Assembly (NCBI RefSeq): GCF_029910095.1 | Contig: NZ_CP094526.1 | Coordinates: 2,356,001-2,420,000, forward strand | DNA: 64,000 bases | Direction of reading: 5' to 3' | DNA from: Bradyrhizobium sp. ISRA464 | Lineage (GTDB): Bacteria; Pseudomonadota; Alphaproteobacteria; Rhizobiales; Xanthobacteraceae | Shown: positions 1,016-13,088 of the stretch, piece after piece | Position numbering within the stretch: the first letter of the stretch is position 1 | Layout of the letters: the number at the start of each line of letters is the position of its first letter | The notes under the pieces: model-generated | Database searches by the model: none | Told to the model about the DNA's origin: nothing | The model's input: only the letters and a program-made list of their open reading frames with translations | Position numbers and translations under genes: made by a program

Positions 1016-1768
1016 ATGACCAGCACCCTTGAGGCTCCCGACAGCGGCTATCGTTTCATGCCCGGCGTCAGCCAGTATTCCTGCGGCATCGGCGCGCTTC
1101 CCGGCTTTGCCATCGAGCGCGTCAGGTTCAGCGCGCCGGTGCCGCTGGCGGCAGGCTTCGCTGGGATCGCGGACATTCTGAAAGCGGCGGGGCGTCCGCT
1201 CACGGCCTTCGGTGCCTGCGAGCTGCGCTCGCCGGCCCCGTTCACCGAGGAGGGCTTCAAGGCGTTCAACGACATCTACATCAAGACCCTGATCGAATGG
1301 GGCGTGATGCGGGACGGCGTCAATCCGGTGGCGCGCAGCAATGTCTGTCCGAAAATCGATCCGCCGAAGGAGCCGTGCTTCCACGCCTTCTCGTACACGG
1401 TGCCGGCACCGAAGGACGCGCCGGCGAGCTTCGTCGTCGCCGGCAGCGGCGAGTCGGTCGAGGGCAAGGGCAACTATCGCGACTATATCGTCGCGCCCGG
1501 CGACACCAGCCCGGCCGGCATGCTCGCCAAGGCAAAATGGGTGCTGGATGAGATGGAGCGCCGGATGAGCGCATTCGGCGCCACCTGGAAGGACACCACC
1601 GCAGTGCAACTCTACACGGTGCATGATGCTTATCCGATCCTCGAAAGCGAGCTCGGCCGCCGCGGCGTATTCCGCAACGGCCTCACCTGGCATTTCAATC
1701 GGCCGCCGGTGGTCGGGCTCGACTACGAAATGGATTGCCGTCGCGTGCATCTCGAACGCGTGGTCTGA
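1016..1768 (+). CDS. RidA/YjgF-superfamily-like protein
   Basis: The product is 250 aa, beginning MTSTLEAPDSGYRF, with no signal peptide. The ATG at 1016 was preferred over an in-frame start at 962 because it follows a GAGGCG-like ribosome site and the upstream codons are repeat DNA. The sequence resembles enlarged RidA/YjgF proteins, with a C-terminal segment about ATWKDTTAVQLYTVHD that fits the family. The characteristic active-site Arg motif of RidA is not obvious, so the family call is tentative and catalysis is not claimed. It leads a same-strand cluster with an amine oxidase, a cytochrome c and a second, clear RidA, so a role in handling an amine-derived intermediate is plausible. It would act in the cytoplasm, unlike the next four products. 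Confidence 0.5.
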   Translation: MTSTLEAPDSGYRFMPGVSQYSCGIGALPGFAIERVRFSAPVPLAAGFAGIADILKAAGRPLTAFGACELRSPAPFTEEGFKAFNDIYIKTLIEWGVMRDGVNPVARSNVCPKIDPPKEPCFHAFSYTVPAPKDAPASFVVAGSGESVEGKGNYRDYIVAPGDTSPAGMLAKAKWVLDEMERRMSAFGATWKDTTAVQLYTVHDAYPILESELGRRGVFRNGLTWHFNRPPVVGLDYEMDCRRVHLERVV

Positions 1769-1876: not shown

Positions 1877-3469
1877 GTGCAGAACGGATCTGTGATCAAG
1901 CGGCGCGATTTGCTCGCGCTGATCGGCACCATCGCCGGCAGTTCGGTGATGTATCAGGCGATGACGAGCCTCGGCTTCGCGTCGGAGTCCGCCTACAAGG
2001 GCCCGCTCAAGCTCGAAGGTAACCCGAAAGGGGCATCCGTGCTGATACTCGGCGCGGGGCTTGCGGGCATGACGGCGGCGCTGGAGCTGCGCAAGGCCGG
2101 CTACAAGGTCCAGATCCTCGAATTCAACAGCCGCCCTGGCGGCCGCAACTGGACGATCCGCGGCGGCGACAGCTTTGTCGAGCTCGGCGGTTTCAGGCAG
2201 ACATGCGAGTTCGAGCAAGGCTTGTACATCAATCCCGGTCCGTGGCGGATTCCCTATCACCACCGCGCGCTGCTCGATTACTGTCGACGGCTCAACGTGG
2301 CGCTGGAGCCTTTCATCCAGCTCAATCACAATGCGTATCTGCACGCGACGCGTGCATTCAACGGCAGGCCGCAACGCATCCGCAGCATCAAGGCGGATTT
2401 CCAGGGCCGGGTGTCGGAGCTGCTTGCCAAGGTCACGCAACAAGGCAAGCTCGACGAGACCGTGACCAAGGAAGACCAGGAGATCCTGCTGCAGTCGCTG
2501 CGGGCCTGGGGCGCGCTCGATCGCGACTACAAGTACAGCGCCAGTCTCGACTCCGCGGCATTCCGCGGCTATGCGCGCGATCCCGGCGGCGGGCTTACGG
2601 CCGATCCGCTGCCGAGCGACCCGATCTCGCTGTCGGACATCCTGCGCTCGCGGCTGTGGCGCTATCTGCAGGCCTTTGCGCGCTACAATTTCCAGACCAC
2701 GATGTTTCAGCCGGTCGGCGGCATGGACATGATCGGCAAGGCCTTCGCGCGCGAAGTCGGCGATCTCATTCGCTACAACGCCAAGGTGACCCAGGTCCAG
2801 CAGAACGGCACCGGCGTCACCGTGAGCTATGTCGATACGGCCAACCCGTCCGCCGTGCAGCAGGCGATCGCCGACTGGTGCATCTGCACCATCCCGCTGT
2901 CGATCCTGAGCCAGTTGCCGATCGATGTCGGCACACCGATGAAAAACGCGATCGATGCGCTGCCTTATGCTGCCTCGGTGAAGATCGGGCTGCAGTTCAA
3001 GCGCCGCTTCTGGGAGGAGGACGAGGCGATCTATGGCGGCATCAGCTTCACCGACCTGCCGATCCGGCAGATCGCCTATCCGAACTATGGCTTCAACCGC
3101 AACGGCCGCGGCATCCTGCTCGGCGGCTATCTGTTCGAGGGTGCCAATTCCTACGAGTTCACCGCGATGACGCCCGCCGAGCGGGTCAAGAGTGCGGTCG
3201 AGTTCGGCGCCATAATCCATCCACAGTACAAGGACGAGTTCGAAACCGGCATTGCGGTGGCCTGGCATCGCGTGCCCTTCACGCTCGGCTGCAGCGGCGA
3301 ATGGAGCGACGCCGGACGCGCGCAGCATTATCGCAACCTCTGTCAGATCGACGGCCGCATCCTGCTGGCGGGCGAGCATGCGTCCGACCTGCCGGCATGG
3401 CAGGAGGGCGCGATCCTGTCCTCGCTCGACGCCGTCACGCGGCTGCACGAACGCGTGGTGAAGACGTGA
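1877..3469 (+). CDS. Tat-exported flavin monoamine oxidase/dehydrogenase
   Basis: This 530-aa protein of the flavin-containing amine oxidase family oxidises amines to imines. The N-terminus has a twin-arginine motif (KRRDLLALIG, about residues 8-17) followed by a hydrophobic stretch, so export of the folded flavoprotein is likely. The dinucleotide fold GAGLAGMTAALELRKAGY (about 58-75) continues into the RPGGR motif. The C-terminus has the FAD-contacting LLAGEHASDLPAWQEGAI segment. The start is a GTG at 1877; a second in-frame GTG at 1892 would also keep the Tat motif. The stop overlaps the ATG of the next gene, a c-type cytochrome, so this enzyme may pass electrons to the cytochrome and not to oxygen, as known for NicA2 with CycN in Pseudomonas putida. 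The substrate cannot be read from the sequence. Confidence 0.85.
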   Translation: MQNGSVIKRRDLLALIGTIAGSSVMYQAMTSLGFASESAYKGPLKLEGNPKGASVLILGAGLAGMTAALELRKAGYKVQILEFNSRPGGRNWTIRGGDSFVELGGFRQTCEFEQGLYINPGPWRIPYHHRALLDYCRRLNVALEPFIQLNHNAYLHATRAFNGRPQRIRSIKADFQGRVSELLAKVTQQGKLDETVTKEDQEILLQSLRAWGALDRDYKYSASLDSAAFRGYARDPGGGLTADPLPSDPISLSDILRSRLWRYLQAFARYNFQTTMFQPVGGMDMIGKAFAREVGDLIRYNAKVTQVQQNGTGVTVSYVDTANPSAVQQAIADWCICTIPLSILSQLPIDVGTPMKNAIDALPYAASVKIGLQFKRRFWEEDEAIYGGISFTDLPIRQIAYPNYGFNRNGRGILLGGYLFEGANSYEFTAMTPAERVKSAVEFGAIIHPQYKDEFETGIAVAWHRVPFTLGCSGEWSDAGRAQHYRNLCQIDGRILLAGEHASDLPAWQEGAILSSLDAVTRLHERVVKT

Positions 3470-3876
3470 TGAGGTTGGCAAGGACATCGGCGGTTGCCGC
3501 GCTGACATTGCTGTCGGCCACTGCGGCCATCGGGCAGGACAGCGCCGCGAACCCGCGCACCTTCTCTTCCGGCTATCGCTTCGTGGAGATGACCGGCGAG
3601 GAATTGTTCGCCAATGTGTGTCAAGGTTGCCACATGCCGGATGCTATGGGGGCGATCGGCGCCGGGAGCTATCCCTCGCTGGCCGGCAACAAGAATCTCG
3701 AAACCGGCAGCTACCCGGTCTTCCTCATCCTCAACGGCCGCCGCGGCATGCCGGCATTCGGCGACATGATGACCGATGGTCAGGTCGCCGCCGTTGTGAA
3801 TTATGTGCGGACGCATTTCGGCAACAACTTTCAGGACGTGGTGACGGCCAAGGACGTTCAGGACGCCCGCCGCTAA
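3469..3876 (+). CDS. Exported monohaem c-type cytochrome
   Basis: A 135-aa protein with a Sec signal peptide (MRLARTSAVAALTLLSATAAIG), one haem-binding CQGCH motif at residues 51-55 and a candidate Met ligand in the later RGMPAFGDMM segment. This is the layout of a small soluble class I cytochrome c. Its ATG overlaps the stop of the amine oxidase gene (TGATG), which indicates translational coupling. It is the natural electron acceptor for the upstream flavoenzyme in the periplasm, passing electrons toward the respiratory chain. The role is inferred from gene order and from the NicA2-CycN precedent; the haem motif is seen directly. Confidence 0.88.
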   Translation: MRLARTSAVAALTLLSATAAIGQDSAANPRTFSSGYRFVEMTGEELFANVCQGCHMPDAMGAIGAGSYPSLAGNKNLETGSYPVFLILNGRRGMPAFGDMMTDGQVAAVVNYVRTHFGNNFQDVVTAKDVQDARR

Positions 3877-3902
3877 CCACGCGACAGATTCGGGGGAGAC
3901 TG

Positions 3903-4397
3903 ATGAAATTCGCCGCTATCGTGCTGGTCGCCGCATTGTCGGCCGTGGCGACCGCAGCCTCTGCCGATGTGATCAGGCATCCAATTCCGAACTCGACATT
4001 CCCGATTGCACAGTCTGTCACGGTCACCGGCAATGCCACGACCGTCTATGTCAGCGGCCAGGTGCCGCCGGTGGTCAACAAGGATGCCGATCCGGCGACC
4101 CCGCAGGCCTATGGCGATACCAAGACCCAGACCGTCGGCGTGCTCAATCGCATCAAGGGCATCCTCGAAGGCCAGGGGCTTGGCATGGGCGATGTCGTCA
4201 AGATGCAGGCGTTCCTGGTTCACACTCCGTCGGCGCCGATGGACTTCAAGGCCTTCATGGAAGGCTACACGCAGTTCTTCGGCGGCAGCCAGCCGAACCT
4301 GCCGGCACGCTCCGTGGTCGGCGTTGCCGCGCTCGCCAATCCCGGCTTCCTGGTCGAGATCGAGGTGGTCGCGGCCAAGGATACGGCTGCGAAGTAA
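3903..4397 (+). CDS. Exported RidA-family enamine/imine deaminase
   Basis: A 164-aa protein with a clear signal peptide (MKFAAIVLVAALSAVATAASA) ahead of a full RidA/YjgF domain. The catalytic Arg is present in LPARSVVGV (R136), and the terminal VEIEVVA strand supplies the conserved Glu. RidA proteins hydrolyse reactive enamine/imine intermediates to ketones and ammonia. Most are cytosolic, so a signal peptide is notable. It lies 26 bp after the cytochrome gene and just before an exported M20 peptidase. It may hydrolyse the imine released by the Tat-exported amine oxidase. The start was chosen for the GGGGGAGACTG ribosome site just upstream and for the signal peptide. Confidence 0.85.
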   Translation: MKFAAIVLVAALSAVATAASADVIRHPIPNSTFPIAQSVTVTGNATTVYVSGQVPPVVNKDADPATPQAYGDTKTQTVGVLNRIKGILEGQGLGMGDVVKMQAFLVHTPSAPMDFKAFMEGYTQFFGGSQPNLPARSVVGVAALANPGFLVEIEVVAAKDTAAK

Positions 4398-4513
4398 TGC
4401 ACGCGAAACAGCGGTGGCATGCGCGCGCAAATTGAATGGCTCGGCGTCTTGCCAAAGCAGGTGTCGCCTGTCTGAATTCGGCCGGTGAGGCTGTGGAATT
4501 CCGGGAGAGCACG

Positions 4514-5938
4514 ATGTCGCACAAGGCCAAAACAACAAGTCGATCGCTCCTGTTGTCGGCCGCCCTCGGTTCGGCGCTGCTGGCAACCGGCGCGGCGGCG
4601 CAAGGGTTGACCGAGCAGCAGCAGTTCGCCCGCGGCATCTACCAGGAGCTGGTCGAGATCAATACGACCACCGCGACCGGCGATACGCAGAAGGCGGCCG
4701 AGGCGATGGGCGCACGGCTGCGTGCGGCGGGCTTCCCCGAGAGTGACGTGCACGTGTTCTCGCCGGCGCCGCACAAGGGCAATCTGGTGGCGCGGCTGCA
4801 CGGTTCCGGTGCGCGCAAGCCGATCCTGCTCGTCGCCCATCTCGACGTGGTCCCCGCCAACCGCGAGGACTGGTCGGTCGATCCGTTCAAGCTCACCGAG
4901 CAGGACGGCTATTTCTACGGGCGCGGCAGCAGCGACGACAAGTACATGGCCTCCGCCTTCATCACCAATCTGATCCGCTACAAGAAGGAGGGCTACAAGC
5001 CCGACCGCGACATCATCGTGGCGCTGGAGACCGATGAGGAGATCCTCGATGCCAACGGTCTGGGCATGCAGTGGCTGATCAAGAACCACCGCGACCTGAT
5101 CGATGCCGAATTCGCGCTGAATGAAGGCGGCGGCGTCGGCCTGAAGGACGGCAAGGCGATCCGCAACACCGTGCAGACCAGCGAGAAGGTCTCGATCGGC
5201 TATCAGCTCACGGTCAAGGATCGCGGCGGCCACAGCTCATTGCCGCGCAAGGACAACGCGATCTATCGTCTCGCGGCAGGGCTCGTCAGGCTCTCCAATT
5301 TCAGCTTCCCGCCGAATTTCAACGAGACGACGCGGCTTTATTTCACGCGGATGGCGGAGCTGGACACCAAGCAGACCGCGGATGACATCCGGGCCGTGCT
5401 GGCGCCGCAACCCGATCCCGCGGCGTTGGCGCGTTTGTCGGAGAATGTCGGCTACAACGCGCAGCTCCGCACCACCTGCGTCGCGACCATGCTGCAAGGC
5501 GGCCATGCCATCAACGCGCTGCCGCAGCTGGCGACCGCCAAGGTGAATTGCCGGATCATGCCAGGTGAGCCGGTCGAGGGCGTGCAGGCGACGCTCGAGC
5601 GTGTGCTCGATGACAGGCAGATCGCGGTGGCGCCGACCGGCAAGGCGGTGCTCAGCCCGCCGTCGCCGCCGAACGAGGAGGTCATGGGGGCGATCGACAA
5701 GCTGTCGAAAGAGTTCTGGCCGGATGCCGCGATCATCCCCGTCATGAGCACCGGCGCGACGGACGGCAGCTATCTGCGTAATGCCGGGATCCCGACCTAC
5801 GGCCATTCCGGGCTTGCCGCCGATATCAAAGACAACAGGAATCATGGCAAGGACGAGCGTGTGCTCGTAAAGTCGTTCTACGAGGGCGAGGATTATCTCT
5901 ATCGCCTGGTCAAGATGCTCGCCGGAGGCAAGTCGTAA
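4514..5938 (+). CDS. Exported M20/M25/M40-family metallopeptidase
   Basis: A 474-aa protein with a signal peptide (ending near TGAAAQ) followed by an M20 fold. Metal-site landmarks are HLDVVP (first His and following Asp), GRGSSDDK (bridging Asp), ETDEEIL (catalytic and ligand Glu pair) and a C-terminal YGHSGL segment. The dimerisation domain insertion begins about ERVSIGYQLTV with the RGGHSSLP motif. M20 enzymes cleave small peptides or N-acyl amino acids using one or two zinc ions. Its place between an exported RidA and aspartate dehydrogenase suggests it releases amino compounds in the periplasm for the amine oxidase. The ATG at 4514 follows GGGAGAGCACG. Confidence 0.87.
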   Translation: MSHKAKTTSRSLLLSAALGSALLATGAAAQGLTEQQQFARGIYQELVEINTTTATGDTQKAAEAMGARLRAAGFPESDVHVFSPAPHKGNLVARLHGSGARKPILLVAHLDVVPANREDWSVDPFKLTEQDGYFYGRGSSDDKYMASAFITNLIRYKKEGYKPDRDIIVALETDEEILDANGLGMQWLIKNHRDLIDAEFALNEGGGVGLKDGKAIRNTVQTSEKVSIGYQLTVKDRGGHSSLPRKDNAIYRLAAGLVRLSNFSFPPNFNETTRLYFTRMAELDTKQTADDIRAVLAPQPDPAALARLSENVGYNAQLRTTCVATMLQGGHAINALPQLATAKVNCRIMPGEPVEGVQATLERVLDDRQIAVAPTGKAVLSPPSPPNEEVMGAIDKLSKEFWPDAAIIPVMSTGATDGSYLRNAGIPTYGHSGLAADIKDNRNHGKDERVLVKSFYEGEDYLYRLVKMLAGGKS

Positions 5939-9238: not shown

Positions 9239-10411
9239 TTACGCCGCCGCAACCGTCTTGCGCGGCGCGAGCGAATGAACGAGGCAGCTTGCATCAGCTA
9301 GATGCACCAATCGTCCGGCGGCAATCACTGCGACGATGCGTGGCCGCAGCGGCACCTTGTCGTCGACGATGACGATGTCGGCGCGGCGGCCCGTGGCCAG
9401 CACGCCGCGATCATCGAGCCCCGCGGCGCGCGCCGGCGCCGAGGAGATCAGGTCCCAGGCCTTGGCGAGTGGCAGGGTGCCGTCGGCCACCAGGCGGAAC
9501 GCTGCGAGCAACTGCGCTGGATAATAGTAGTCCGATGCCAGCACCGAGCAGAGGCCCTTCGCGATCATGTCGGATGCCTTGGTCCAGCCGGTGTGGCTGC
9601 CGCCGCGCACCACATTCGGGGCGCCGAACACGATGAAGTCACCGGCTGCGGCTGCGTCGCGCGCGGTCTCCTCGTTGATCGGGAATTCGGCGATCGCGGC
9701 GCCCCGTGCACGAAACTCCTGGCGCATGGCGGGGCTGCTGTCGTCATGTGAGAGCATGCGGATGCCGGCGGCGCGCGCCGCGGCGGCCAGACGCGCGATC
9801 GAGGCGGGTACGTCGGGGCGGCGGGCGACGATCCGGTCGAGCATCTCGTTGATCGCCTCGACCGAGAGCCCAGAGCGCTCGGCGAGCTGGTTGCGCTTGT
9901 TCGGCTTGACGTTGCTGTGATCGTTGAAGGCGAACAGATCGATGCGGCCCTCGGCGAGCCATTGCGTGATCTCGGCCTCGGCATCGAGATTGTGGGTCTC
10001 GTGGCGCAGGTGGAAGCGTGTATCGGCGGCAAGCTGCGGCCGCAAGGCCTCGATCGTATCGAGCAGTTTCCGCGCATTGTCGGCGCTGCGCAGGCCGGGC
10101 TCCCACGACCAGGTCGCGCCGTGGAACACGGTGGTGATGCCGTTGGCGATCGCCTGCCGGTCGCTGTCGACAAGCGCGACGTCGGTCGGGAAGTCGACGC
10201 CGGGGCGCGGCATCATCTGCCGCTCGAAGGCATCGCCGTGCAGGTCGACGATGCCGGGCAGCACCAACAGCCCGTTGGCGTCAAGATGAAGGGCCGCGCG
10301 GCCCTGCTCGGCGTCGAGCGACGCGATGTCGCGTCCCGTGGTTCGAAGCGATGTCTCGACGAACGCCCCGTCGATCAGCGCGCGGCCGCCTTCGATGAAA
10401 ATGTCGGTCAC
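9239..10411 (-). CDS. phnM: PhnM-family amidohydrolase, second copy
   Basis: A 390-aa amidohydrolase of the PhnM family, which removes diphosphate from alpha-D-ribose 1-methylphosphonate 5-triphosphate in the C-P lyase pathway. Visible motifs are the metal-binding [36 protein letters not shown] and [14 protein letters not shown]. Another PhnM (20478-21632) lies in the main operon. The two differ: this one has HGDAFERQ where the other has HTDHLEMH. The start is GTG at 10411, overlapping the stop of the upstream hexapeptide gene (GTGA). The two PhnM copies may handle different substrates, or one may be redundant. Confidence 0.85.
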
Positions 10412-11073
10412 GATGCGGCACTCCGCTGGTTTTCCTGTAATTCGGAAGCGCTCTCAGCTTCGTACTTGTCGAGGAAACCTTCCACCGGAAGCTTGCGAAA
10501 ATCGGGCAGGGCGCGGCGGAGCGTCTCATGGTCCCAGTCCCACCACGCCAGTGCGATGAGACGATTCGCGATTGCCGCGGAGAAACGCGGCTTGATTGGC
10601 CGCGCCGGATTGCTGGCAACGATCGTGTAGGCAGGCACGTCCTTGGTGACGATCGCGCCGGCGGCGACGACGGCGCCGGTGCCGATGTTCCGGCCCGGTA
10701 ATATGATCGCACCGTGACCGATCCAAACGTCATGGCCGATATGCACGTGATGCGCACGTCGCCAGCTGAAGAAGTCGGTGTCGTCGCTCTCTCCGGGAAA
10801 ATAGGCGCTGGCGCGGTAGGTGAAATGCGCTTGCGTGGCGCGATGCATCGGATGATTCCCGGGATTGATCCGGGTCATTGCTGCGATCGAGCAGAGCTTT
10901 CCGATCGTCGTATAGGTGATCTGGCTGTCATTCACGACGTAAGAGTAGTCGTCCATGCTCACTTCGAGCAGGATCGTGCGCGCGCCGACCTCGGTATAGG
11001 TGCCGAGCTTGCTCTCGCGCACCGACGCACTGGGATCGATCGTCGGTACGACCGAGAGTTTCTTTCCGGGCAT
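10408..11073 (-). CDS. Phosphonate-locus hexapeptide-repeat acyltransferase (TIGR03308-like)
   Basis: A 221-aa left-handed beta-helix transferase. The hexapeptide turns begin about [13 protein letters not shown] and resume about [47 protein letters not shown], typical of xenobiotic or chloramphenicol-type acetyltransferases. This subfamily is known from C-P lyase clusters. PhnO, the usual aminoalkylphosphonate N-acetyltransferase, is absent here, so this enzyme may do a comparable acyl transfer. It is the first gene of the minus-strand operon, divergent from phnC. The ATG lies at 11073. Confidence 0.8.
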
Positions 11074-11198
11074 CGGGGCCTCCGCAAATCATGGCTTCCG
11101 GGGAGATGCGCTCGTCTTCACGGTGCTTGATGACAAGATCATGACGTTGCGATGGCGGCAAGAGAGGTGGTGTGGACGATCGCCGCACCGCAGCAGCA

Positions 11199-11216
11199 TC
11201 GTCACATAACTGTAAG
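11199..11216 (+). promoter_or_regulatory. Weak candidate Pho box upstream of phnC
   Basis: TCGTCAC-ATAA-CTGTAAG matches 9 of 14 positions of the PhoB half-site pair CTGTCAT-N4-CTGTCAT. It lies about 48 bp before the phnC start, in the divergent gap to the hexapeptide gene. The match is weaker than the site at 15828-15845. Regulation is inferred from phosphate control of phn genes elsewhere. Confidence 0.4.
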
Positions 11217-11263
11217 ACAGCGGGGATAGCGATGGCCCCATCGAGACGCGGGTGGAGCATTGC

Positions 11264-12079
11264 ATGCTGTTGGTGGAAGGTCTGACGTGCCGTTTCGGCG
11301 CAAAAGCCGCGGTCGATAACGCGTCGTTCTCGATTGCGCCGGGCAGCTTCGTCGGCGTGATCGGCCGCTCCGGTGCCGGCAAGTCGACGCTGCTGCGGAT
11401 GATCAACCGCCTCGCCGCCCCGACCTCCGGCCGTATCCTGTTCGAAGGCACCGACGTCACCGCGCTGCGCGGCAAGGCGCTGCGGCAGTGGCGCGCGCGC
11501 TCGGCGATGATCTTTCAGCAATTCAATCTCGTCGGCAGGCTCGATGTTCTGACCAACGTGCTGATGGGGCGGCTTGCCGAAATCCCGTCGTGGCGCTCGC
11601 TGGCGCAGATGTGGCCGGAGCACGACCGGGCGCTTGCGATGTCCGCGCTCGAGCAGTTCGACATTGCGCAACTCGCCGCGCAGCGCGCCGACCAGCTCTC
11701 CGGCGGCCAGCAGCAGCGCGTCGCGATCGCCCGCGCGCTGGTGCAGGAACCCGACATCATCCTGGCCGACGAGCCGATCGCGTCGCTCGATCCGCGCAAT
11801 ACCAAGATCGTGATGGACGCGCTGCTGCGCATCAACAAGCATTTCGGCATCACCGTGCTCTGCAACCTGCATTCGCTCGATCTGGCGCGCACCTATTGCG
11901 ACCGCCTGATCGGCATGGCGGCCGGCCGCGTGGTGTTCGACGGTCAACCATCGATGCTGACCGACCACATCGCCCGAGAGCTCTACGACCTCGAGGCCAA
12001 TGACGTCATCGGCGCGGCGCCGTTGTCCGTGCCCGAGGGTACAAACGTTCCGGCGCTCGGCACCGCAGCTGCGGCCTGA
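11264..12079 (+). CDS. phnC: Phosphonate ABC transporter ATP-binding protein PhnC
   Basis: A 271-aa ABC ATPase of the phosphonate importer. Walker A is GRSGAGKST, the signature LSGGQQQR, Walker [14 protein letters not shown], and the switch His lies in NLHSLD. It powers uptake of phosphonates with PhnD and two PhnE permeases. The ATG at 11264 (MLLVEGL) is preferred to a GTG at 11252 because GGTGGAG at 11251-11257 gives a well-spaced ribosome site. A Pho-box-like element lies upstream. It heads the phnCDE1E2 operon. Confidence 0.92.
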
Positions 12080-12158
12080 GCGGCGCGCATTTTTCCGATC
12101 AGGATGGACGGGCATTTCGCCCGGCCAAACAGGCGTAACCACAACAAGGGGGTTTATC

Positions 12159-13088
12159 ATGATCACTCGTCGTACCGTTTTGGCCGGCGCTGCCTCGCTG
12201 GCGTTCGCCGGCTCGGCTTCGGCCTCGGACTGGAAGACGAAATATCCGGAGATCACCTTCGCCGTGATCCCGGCCGAGAACGGTTCCGGCGTCACCGAGC
12301 GCTTCGGGCCGCTTATCAGCTACTTGTCGAAGGAGCTCGGCATCAAGGTGAACCTGCGCGTCGCCAACGACTACGCGGCCGTGATCGAGGGCCAGCGCGC
12401 CGGCAACATTCAGATCGGCTATTACGGTCCGGCATCGTTCTCGCGCGCCCTTCTCACCGGCGTCAAGACCGACGCCTTCGTGATCGACGTCAATGCCGAC
12501 GGCTCCAAGGGCTACTATTCGGTGTTCTACGTGCTCGCCAAGAGCCCGTACCAGAAGGTCGAAGACCTCAAGGGCAAGAATCTCGGCCTGGTCGATCCCA
12601 ACTCGACCTCCGGCAACAACATGCCGCGCTTCAAGCTGAACCAGATGGGCATCGATCCGGACAGCTTCTTCTCCAAGGTGATCTTCACCGGCAGCCACGA
12701 GAACGCCGTGCTGGCGCTCGCGCAGGGCACCGTCGACGTTGCCGCCAACTGGTGGAACGCCGACGACGACTCCAACCTCACTCGCATGCTCAACAAGAAC
12801 ATGGTGAAGTCGAGCGACGGCACGCCGTTGAAGAAGGAGGACTTCCGCATCATCTCGAAGTCCGACCTCATCATCAACTCGCCCTATGCCTATCTCCGCG
12901 ACCTGCCCGACGACATGAAGGCCGCGATCAAGCAGGCGTTCCTGGATGCGGCGACGAAGGATCCGGAGGCCTTCAAGAAGCTGTCCGACGGCAAGAACCG
13001 TCCGTGGCAGCCGATCACCAACGCCGACTACGACAAGACCATCGAGCTGATCAAGTTCGTGGACAATCTGCGCAAGAAGGCGTCCTGA
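12159..13088 (+). CDS. phnD: Phosphonate-binding periplasmic protein PhnD
   Basis: A 309-aa periplasmic substrate-binding protein of the phosphate/phosphonate ABC importer. The signal sequence starts MITRRTVLAGAASLAFAG; the TRRTVLAG core resembles a Tat motif, though Sec export is also possible. The mature part carries the PhnD hallmarks FAVIPAENGSG, GYYGPASFSRA, DPNSTSGNNMPRF and GSHENAVLAL. The ATG at 12159 follows an AAGGGGG ribosome site. It follows phnC and is separated from phnE1 by a strong hairpin. Confidence 0.93.
   Translation: MITRRTVLAGAASLAFAGSASASDWKTKYPEITFAVIPAENGSGVTERFGPLISYLSKELGIKVNLRVANDYAAVIEGQRAGNIQIGYYGPASFSRALLTGVKTDAFVIDVNADGSKGYYSVFYVLAKSPYQKVEDLKGKNLGLVDPNSTSGNNMPRFKLNQMGIDPDSFFSKVIFTGSHENAVLALAQGTVDVAANWWNADDDSNLTRMLNKNMVKSSDGTPLKKEDFRIISKSDLIINSPYAYLRDLPDDMKAAIKQAFLDAATKDPEAFKKLSDGKNRPWQPITNADYDKTIELIKFVDNLRKKAS

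Follow-up and report, generated by a model that had tools for sequence, protein, structure and literature searches.

Introduction

The subject of this analysis is a set of four genes of the soil bacterium Bradyrhizobium sp. ISRA464: lao, encoding a flavin L-amino-acid oxidase or dehydrogenase, and the cytochrome c, rid and M20 peptidase genes that follow it. They lie in a stretch of 64,000 nucleotides (NZ_CP094526.1, positions 2,356,001 to 2,420,000), which was analyzed as a whole and is referred to as the window; it is part of a single 8.46 Mb contig. The closest described system is the lao-cccA-ridA cluster (GDI2456-GDI2454) of Gluconacetobacter diazotrophicus PAL5 (PMC5053998). Tn5 lao mutants of this bacterium produced no indole-3-acetic acid (IAA) from tryptophan, one lao mutant had reduced transcripts of lao, cccA and ridA, and rice inoculated with a lao mutant had smaller roots (PMC5053998). 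The same paper predicted a twin-arginine translocation (Tat) signal on the oxidase, proposed the cytochrome c and RidA as its helpers, stated that Caulobacter and Xanthomonas have kept the gene order, and cited cytochrome c maturation (ccm) mutants with 5% of the IAA.

In Chlamydomonas, LAO1 and LAO2/RIDA occur together in the periplasm, and IAA formation from tryptophan requires LAO1 (PMC10805672). Among the tested pairs of Tat amine oxidoreductases and adjacent cytochromes c, most, though not all, of the enzymes were dehydrogenases, the presence of the cytochrome being the stronger predictor of this function (PMC12224317). As for the Rid proteins, the Rid3 members PFL_1385 and PSPTO_3006 act on imines from an L-amino-acid oxidase (PMC5619798), an Ile where RidA has Tyr is a mark of Rid3, and genes for RidA, and sometimes for Rid3, cluster with those for flavin adenine dinucleotide (FAD)-dependent amine oxidases (PMC4433059).

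Results

Family and active site of Lao

We found that the locus is best explained by a periplasmic L-amino-acid dehydrogenase that passes its electrons to the cytochrome c of its own operon (probability roughly 0.7). As the initial annotation of this DNA had proposed, lao, the cytochrome c gene, rid and the M20 gene are four successive genes on the plus strand whose products carry export signals, which was confirmed by gene calls, Pfam matches and hydrophobic or twin-arginine (RR) N-termini. The proposed overlap of the oxidase with a CQGCH cytochrome was also confirmed; the motif comprises residues 51-55, and one base is common to the lao stop and the cytochrome start.

The closest solved structure to Lao, both by sequence and by model search, was the R. 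opacus L-amino-acid oxidase (LAAO; PDB 2jae), and the match extended over the whole length in sequence and fold and lay well above other amine oxidases. In an alignment of 45 homologues, Arg119 and Lys364 were invariant and Tyr413 was present in at least 90% (residues are numbered from the second GTG, at position 1892, which was used as the query start and gives 525 residues). The counterpart of Arg119 is, by count, residue 83 of the 2jae chain, in a GATRIP stretch. We take Arg119 and Tyr413, which were placed by eye on the 2jae alignment rows, to be the carboxylate-binding Arg and Tyr. With these features, Lao is classified from its sequence as a putative R. opacus-type LAAO of the flavin amine oxidoreductase superfamily. 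A general amine or acyl-amine oxidase was ruled out as its identity on sequence and fold. The nearest relatives of the oxidase belong to Bradyrhizobium, with 92% identity in four loci (L009-L012) and 98% in a protein from Bradyrhizobium sp. ISRA443. No lao-cytochrome fusion was seen, by Pfam content, among the 120 proteins listed of 7975.

Conservation of the gene order and the cytochrome partner

To describe conservation, the best 80 of 263 confirmed relatives were tallied with profiles for genes on the same strand, downstream and within 3.8 kb, with a threshold of 300 bits for M20. In a second sample, covering the phylum, 27 of 398 genomes including the host had a close oxidase relative (E 1e-60 or better); 29 loci were scored of the 30 matches outside the host genome, as the second oxidase of L125, which has its own cytochrome and rid alongside, was left out. 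Within the genus sample, the oxidase was present in 37 of 146 genomes including the host (E 1e-100), and it is therefore an accessory trait.

A cytochrome with a C..CH motif was found just downstream of the oxidase in 76 of the 80 relatives, and both this motif and Met94 were kept in 94/94 aligned relatives. A rid gene was present in 58/80. An M20 gene was present in 34/80 (33 by profile tally and L039 on recount) and in one of the 29 phylum loci (L120, of the same genus). The phylum loci comprised 18 with a monoheme cytochrome, 3 with a diheme cytochrome and 8 with neither. In the diheme loci (L139, L140 and L144), the diheme cytochrome stands between the oxidase and rid in place of the monoheme protein (Pfam checked for L140).

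A 61-row oxidase tree was built from 31 relatives hand-chosen from the 80, the 29 phylum loci and the window, with the N-tail excluded; it was made by a quick method and has some long branches. On this tree, the cytochrome state changed 3 times and the rid state 13 times, up to two of the latter being possible artefacts, since L084 and L086 were scored as lacking rid though their sequences are cut. The few cytochrome changes against the many rid changes mark the oxidase and cytochrome as the core and Rid as an option, and the recurrence of the arrangement across other genera and families is more than chance. The tallies over relatives and phylum loci ruled out one conserved four-gene module. 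The expected conservation of gene order thus held for the oxidase-cytochrome pair, in part for rid and not for M20, and the idea of the four genes as one set was not sustained: the pair makes up the core, Rid may be missing, and M20 belongs mostly to Bradyrhizobium and near kin.

The four relatives that lack the cytochrome (L029, L031, L033 and L083) are extra oxidase copies, also without rid, in strains that carry the full locus as well (L025, L016, L020 and L015). In L031, a major facilitator superfamily transporter of the RhtX/FptX/AmpG kind lies behind the oxidase. These Bradyrhizobium copies, the deeper branch in which the oxidase likewise has no adjacent cytochrome, and the oxidase name of the nearest solved relative would suit a true H2O2-forming periplasmic LAAO whose cytochrome serves another role, for instance in removing peroxide or in a nearby pathway. 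We consider this quite improbable, as the cytochrome is the most stable partner of the oxidase (76/80; 3 tree changes) and, in PMC12224317, dehydrogenase function was predicted more strongly by an adjacent cytochrome. The cytochrome, as the initial annotation suggested, is therefore supported as the likeliest electron acceptor. Lao also shares the arrangement of NicA2 and Pnao, with a Tat signal on the flavin amine oxidoreductase and a Sec signal on the adjacent cytochrome c, as judged by motif and hydrophobicity only.

Subfamily, residues and export of Rid

The solved proteins closest to Rid were PSPTO3006 (PDB 9bka; 5.1e-31) and PFL1385 (9bkc; 8.7e-25). Ile35, R136 (in LPARS) and E154 are present in the window protein. 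Among the 80 aligned relatives, Ile was kept in all 80, and Arg and Glu in 79 each, L076 having a gap. The Arg and Glu that had been noted in an exported Rid were thereby confirmed. The conserved Arg and Glu, together with the Ile replacing the RidA Tyr, place the protein in the Rid3 subfamily by sequence, and an exported Rid with these catalytic residues supports the proposed imine hydrolysis step.

All 58 of the rid genes downstream of the oxidase in the relatives encode a hydrophobic N-terminus. Rid was present in 22 of the 29 phylum loci, at more than 3 kb distance in L142 and L146, and had a hydrophobic start in 20, giving 78 of 80 rids overall. The two signal-less rids (L147 and L148) adjoin oxidases that have a weak stretch after the RR and no cytochrome; these oxidases are 89% identical, and the two cases are perhaps one event. 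Rid export fits a compartment shared with the oxidase but does not closely track the strength of the oxidase signal, and is thus suggestive only. In the host genome, one of the eight Rid loci examined, the present one, has a hydrophobic N-terminus. Elsewhere in this genome, at G000:C1:6609316-6610377, three PF01042 matches in one 572-residue frame indicate a multi-domain Rid protein.

Export signals and the conserved Tat segment

Export signals were called from hydrophobicity and motif only. That of Lao consists of the twin arginine in KRRDLLALIG and a hydrophobic stretch, and the cytochrome, Rid and M20 proteins have hydrophobic N-termini ending in Ala-rich sites. An RR with a hydrophobic stretch above threshold was found in the Lao proteins of 75 of the 80 relatives; the remaining ones are truncated at contig ends (L083 and L085) or have an RR with a weaker stretch (L082, L084 and L087). 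The corresponding phylum count was 23 of 29, with five further loci having an RR and a weaker stretch and L125 a Lys-Arg. Predicted export of the oxidase and Rid, a point on which the initial annotation depended, was therefore found in most loci (75/80 relatives and 78/80 rids), L147 and L148 failing for Rid. These predicted signals also support its assumption that the products share one compartment.

Signal peptides usually drift. The twin-arginine segment of the oxidase (RRDLLALIG...MYQAMTSLG) was 75% identical to the window protein, versus 78% for the body (79 relatives). For signal versus mature part, the values were 37 versus 68% in the cytochrome (76 relatives), 46 versus 76% in Rid (57 relatives) and 46 versus 83% in M20 (36 relatives). 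All signal borders were set by hand, and misplaced starts would depress these last three signal identities. In a 45-row alignment, Tat segment and body had identities of 75 versus 73% in 18 close rows, 52 versus 54% in 16 far rows with a cytochrome, and 35 versus 36% in 10 rows without a cytochrome or with a diheme one. Because the segment is conserved like the enzyme body, a task beyond export is suggested; it might remain uncleaved and serve as an anchor, or be a dock for the cytochrome. In the AlphaFold model, the N-tail of Lao was not firmly placed, with block means of 71, 63, 55 and 74 over residues 1-40.

The M20 peptidase

The M20 protein belongs to NF006596 (PRK09133), a group without a named function. 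All seven metal and catalytic positions were complete in the 34/34 relatives aligned (above 300 bits; L039 not among them); the metal-ligand set is presumably H-x-D / D / E-E / E / H. No other close M20 homologue was found in the host genome at E 1e-10. A signal-like start was seen by eye in most loci, those of L032, L039 and L040 not being resolved.

An exported M20 protein with a complete active site could be a part of the module that supplies substrate, so that peptides or N-acyl amino acids would be turned into 2-oxo acids wholly within the periplasm. Its downstream position in the 34 relatives, of which 29 also have the cytochrome and rid and five lack rid (L034, L035, L041, L045 and L047), agrees with this idea, as does L139, a distant diheme-type locus in which an M20 gene (368 bits, signal-like start) lies upstream of the oxidase on the opposite strand. 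However, the single downstream occurrence among the phylum loci speaks against it, and many Aminobacter and Mesorhizobium loci yielded no more than weak partial M20 matches at this position. The sole such locus examined, L062 (Aminobacter), has a different, signal-less ArgE/DapE-type M20 (NF009558, 762 bits). Moreover, the window gene ends 4 bases before an aspartate dehydrogenase gene (NF009825, 450 bits) and may belong to the genes downstream. The supply role is possible, and we put it forward tentatively; M20 appears from these sequences to be mainly limited to Bradyrhizobium and near kin and to be a local addition. Behind the cluster in L062 (9732-13801) lie the ArgE/DapE-type M20 and a family-5 solute-binding protein with an ABC (ATP-binding cassette) permease.

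Proposed mechanism

Families, catalytic residues, export signals and gene order were read from the sequence, and from these we infer the electron route, the substrate and the M20 role. Lao would fold with FAD in the cytoplasm, be exported by Tat and convert L-amino acids to 2-imino acids, passing the two electrons singly to the Sec-exported cytochrome c of the next gene. The cytochrome would feed the respiratory chain, and H2O2 formation would be small. Exported Rid3 would accelerate hydrolysis of the imino acid to the 2-oxo acid and ammonium, and in the Bradyrhizobium line the exported M20 hydrolase might set the amino acid free by cleaving a dipeptide or an N-acyl derivative. Of the sequence originally envisaged (peptide or acyl cleavage, amine oxidation and imine hydrolysis), the last step is supported, general amine oxidation gives way to an LAAO by sequence and fold, and substrate supply by M20 is a guess.

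Tryptophan would be converted to indole-3-pyruvate, in line with the findings in G. diazotrophicus, and the locus could then be an auxin-making device that mainly uses tryptophan and has indole-3-pyruvate as its intended product. The IAA-less G. diazotrophicus mutants and the smaller rice roots seen with one of them (PMC5053998), as well as the need for LAO1 in Chlamydomonas (PMC10805672), favor this explanation, which we regard as unlikely. The host genome had no TIGR03394 indolepyruvate decarboxylase above the cut-off and 13 weaker matches, a weak argument, as 14 control genomes likewise had none. LAAOs are usually broad in substrate, and the M20 gene here and a peptide- or nickel-type ABC transporter in L062 (one Aminobacter locus) hint at other uses.

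Several observations weigh against a dehydrogenase that reduces the cytochrome and works beside an exported Rid. The R. opacus and snake LAAOs are oxidases, and the oxidase stands without a neighbouring cytochrome in 8 of 29 phylum loci and 4 of 80 relatives. No rid was detected downstream in 22/80 relatives, of which L078, L084 and L086 end less than 1.5 kb from the oxidase and cannot be judged, nor in 7/29 phylum loci; Rid is therefore not needed. The rids of L122 and L124 are predicted to be exported beside oxidases whose stretch is as weak as in L147 and L148. The conservation of the Lao N-tail is odd for a cleaved signal. In literature listings with thin coverage of subscription journals, no test of cytochrome reduction by an LAAO of this branch was found. 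Additionally, clade 1 pairs were slow with their own cytochromes (PMC12224317).

A broader view, which we hold to be somewhat doubtful, would see here a separate further lineage of dehydrogenases that use cytochrome c, within a superfamily whose members were long regarded as oxidases. Its Tat segment would stay on after export as an anchor or cytochrome dock, and in Bradyrhizobium the exported M20 hydrolase would extend it to a complete pathway, all of it periplasmic, in which peptides or N-acyl amino acids yield 2-oxo acids, ammonium and respiratory electrons.

Should the electron route hold, many Pseudomonadota proteins named L-amino-acid or monoamine oxidases would be dehydrogenases of the respiratory chain with little peroxide formation, and the oxidase-cytochrome gene pair offers a direct test of this route. 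The loci are also a clear natural collection of exported Rid proteins that have an exported, imine-producing enzyme as neighbour, and in plant-associated bacteria the proposal bears on the site of indole-3-pyruvate and ammonium formation.

Gene layout and neighbouring genes

The features are collected in Table 1. The (M/V)QNE... start encoded at GTG 1877 also occurs in some relatives, and the lao stop is at 3467-3469. The intergenic gaps are 26 bases between the cytochrome and rid genes and 116 bases between rid and M20. A nicotinamidase gene (NF008623) lies close behind the aspartate dehydrogenase gene.

Table 1. Features of the lao locus, in window positions
Feature	Position	Strand	Details
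CnbZ-like gene (2-amino-5-chloromuconate deaminase family)	1016-1768		Just upstream of lao; NF049982 390 bits
lao, Tat-type FAD L-amino-acid oxidase/dehydrogenase	1877..3469	+	Pfam Amino_oxidase 169.6 bits; 530 aa from GTG 1877
Twin-arginine N-terminal segment of lao	1892..1990	+	VIKRRDLLALIGTIAGSSVMYQAMTSLGFASES
Monoheme cytochrome c with signal peptide	3469..3876	+	ATG 3469; Pfam Cytochrome_CBB3 51.2 bits / Cytochrom_C
rid, predicted exported Rid3-type imine deaminase	3903..4397	+	ATG 3903; Pfam Ribonuc_L-PSP 73 bits
Predicted exported M20 metallopeptidase (PRK09133 group)	4514..5938	+	ATG 4514; Peptidase_M20 105.5 bits; NF006596 628 bits, cut-off 349

The CnbZ-like gene was present in 23 of the 80 relatives, every one titled Bradyrhizobium. 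No signal was seen in its protein, which had no match to PDB sequences at E 0.001, and its AlphaFold model, built from 15 close sequences, was unusable (mean predicted local distance difference test score, 43.9). The gene is a candidate for a second imine deaminase of the module. A terminator-like hairpin was found between it and lao (1787-1810); the region had 6 hairpins versus a shuffled mean of 4.4 (standard deviation 2.4), which is near chance. Further along the window (9239-13088) are phosphonate genes, with a PhnM-like gene at 9239-10411 on the minus strand (677 bits) and a PhnD-like binding protein gene at 12000-13088 (338 bits).

Comparison with known systems

The initial annotation knew of no described system with the full set. 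For three of its four genes this view is incorrect, given lao-cccA-ridA in PMC5053998 (2016) and the LAO1/RidA pair in PMC10805672. As in G. diazotrophicus, the three genes are adjacent and co-directional and the oxidase has a Tat signal; peptides derived from the G. diazotrophicus RT-qPCR primers matched the family at best in 5/7, 5/7, 5/7, 6/6, 5/7 and 5/6 residues, which are short matches without statistics. In contrast, the accessible text on that system mentions neither an M20 gene nor RidA export, and ties the function to IAA. NicA2/CycN/Pnao of Pseudomonas putida S16 and the dehydrogenases of PMC12224317 share with our locus a Tat flavin amine oxidoreductase and an adjacent Sec cytochrome c, whereas the PMC12224317 set was found from NicA2, and its main text does not contain the terms "L-amino acid", "LAAO", "Rid" or "Bradyrhizobium". 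The Chlamydomonas LAO1/LAO2(RIDA) pair is similar in having a periplasmic LAAO with a RidA partner; it differs in being eukaryotic and H2O2-forming, with no cytochrome partner mentioned in the accessible text.

The aligned chain of the R. opacus LAAO (2jae), an enzyme described as an oxidase, begins at the start of the Lao body (model residue 38). PSPTO_3006 and PFL_1385 of Pseudomonas have the Ile for the RidA Tyr and the catalytic Arg and Glu, as in Rid; PSPTO_3006 aligns only from Rid residue 31, past the signal, whereas in PFL_1385 a hydrophobic N-terminus lines up with the Rid signal. No M20 gene in an LAAO cluster of this kind was found in the literature listings, subscription journals being thinly covered. 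The oxidase-cytochrome-Rid module is thus already known, and M20 is the enzyme added here.

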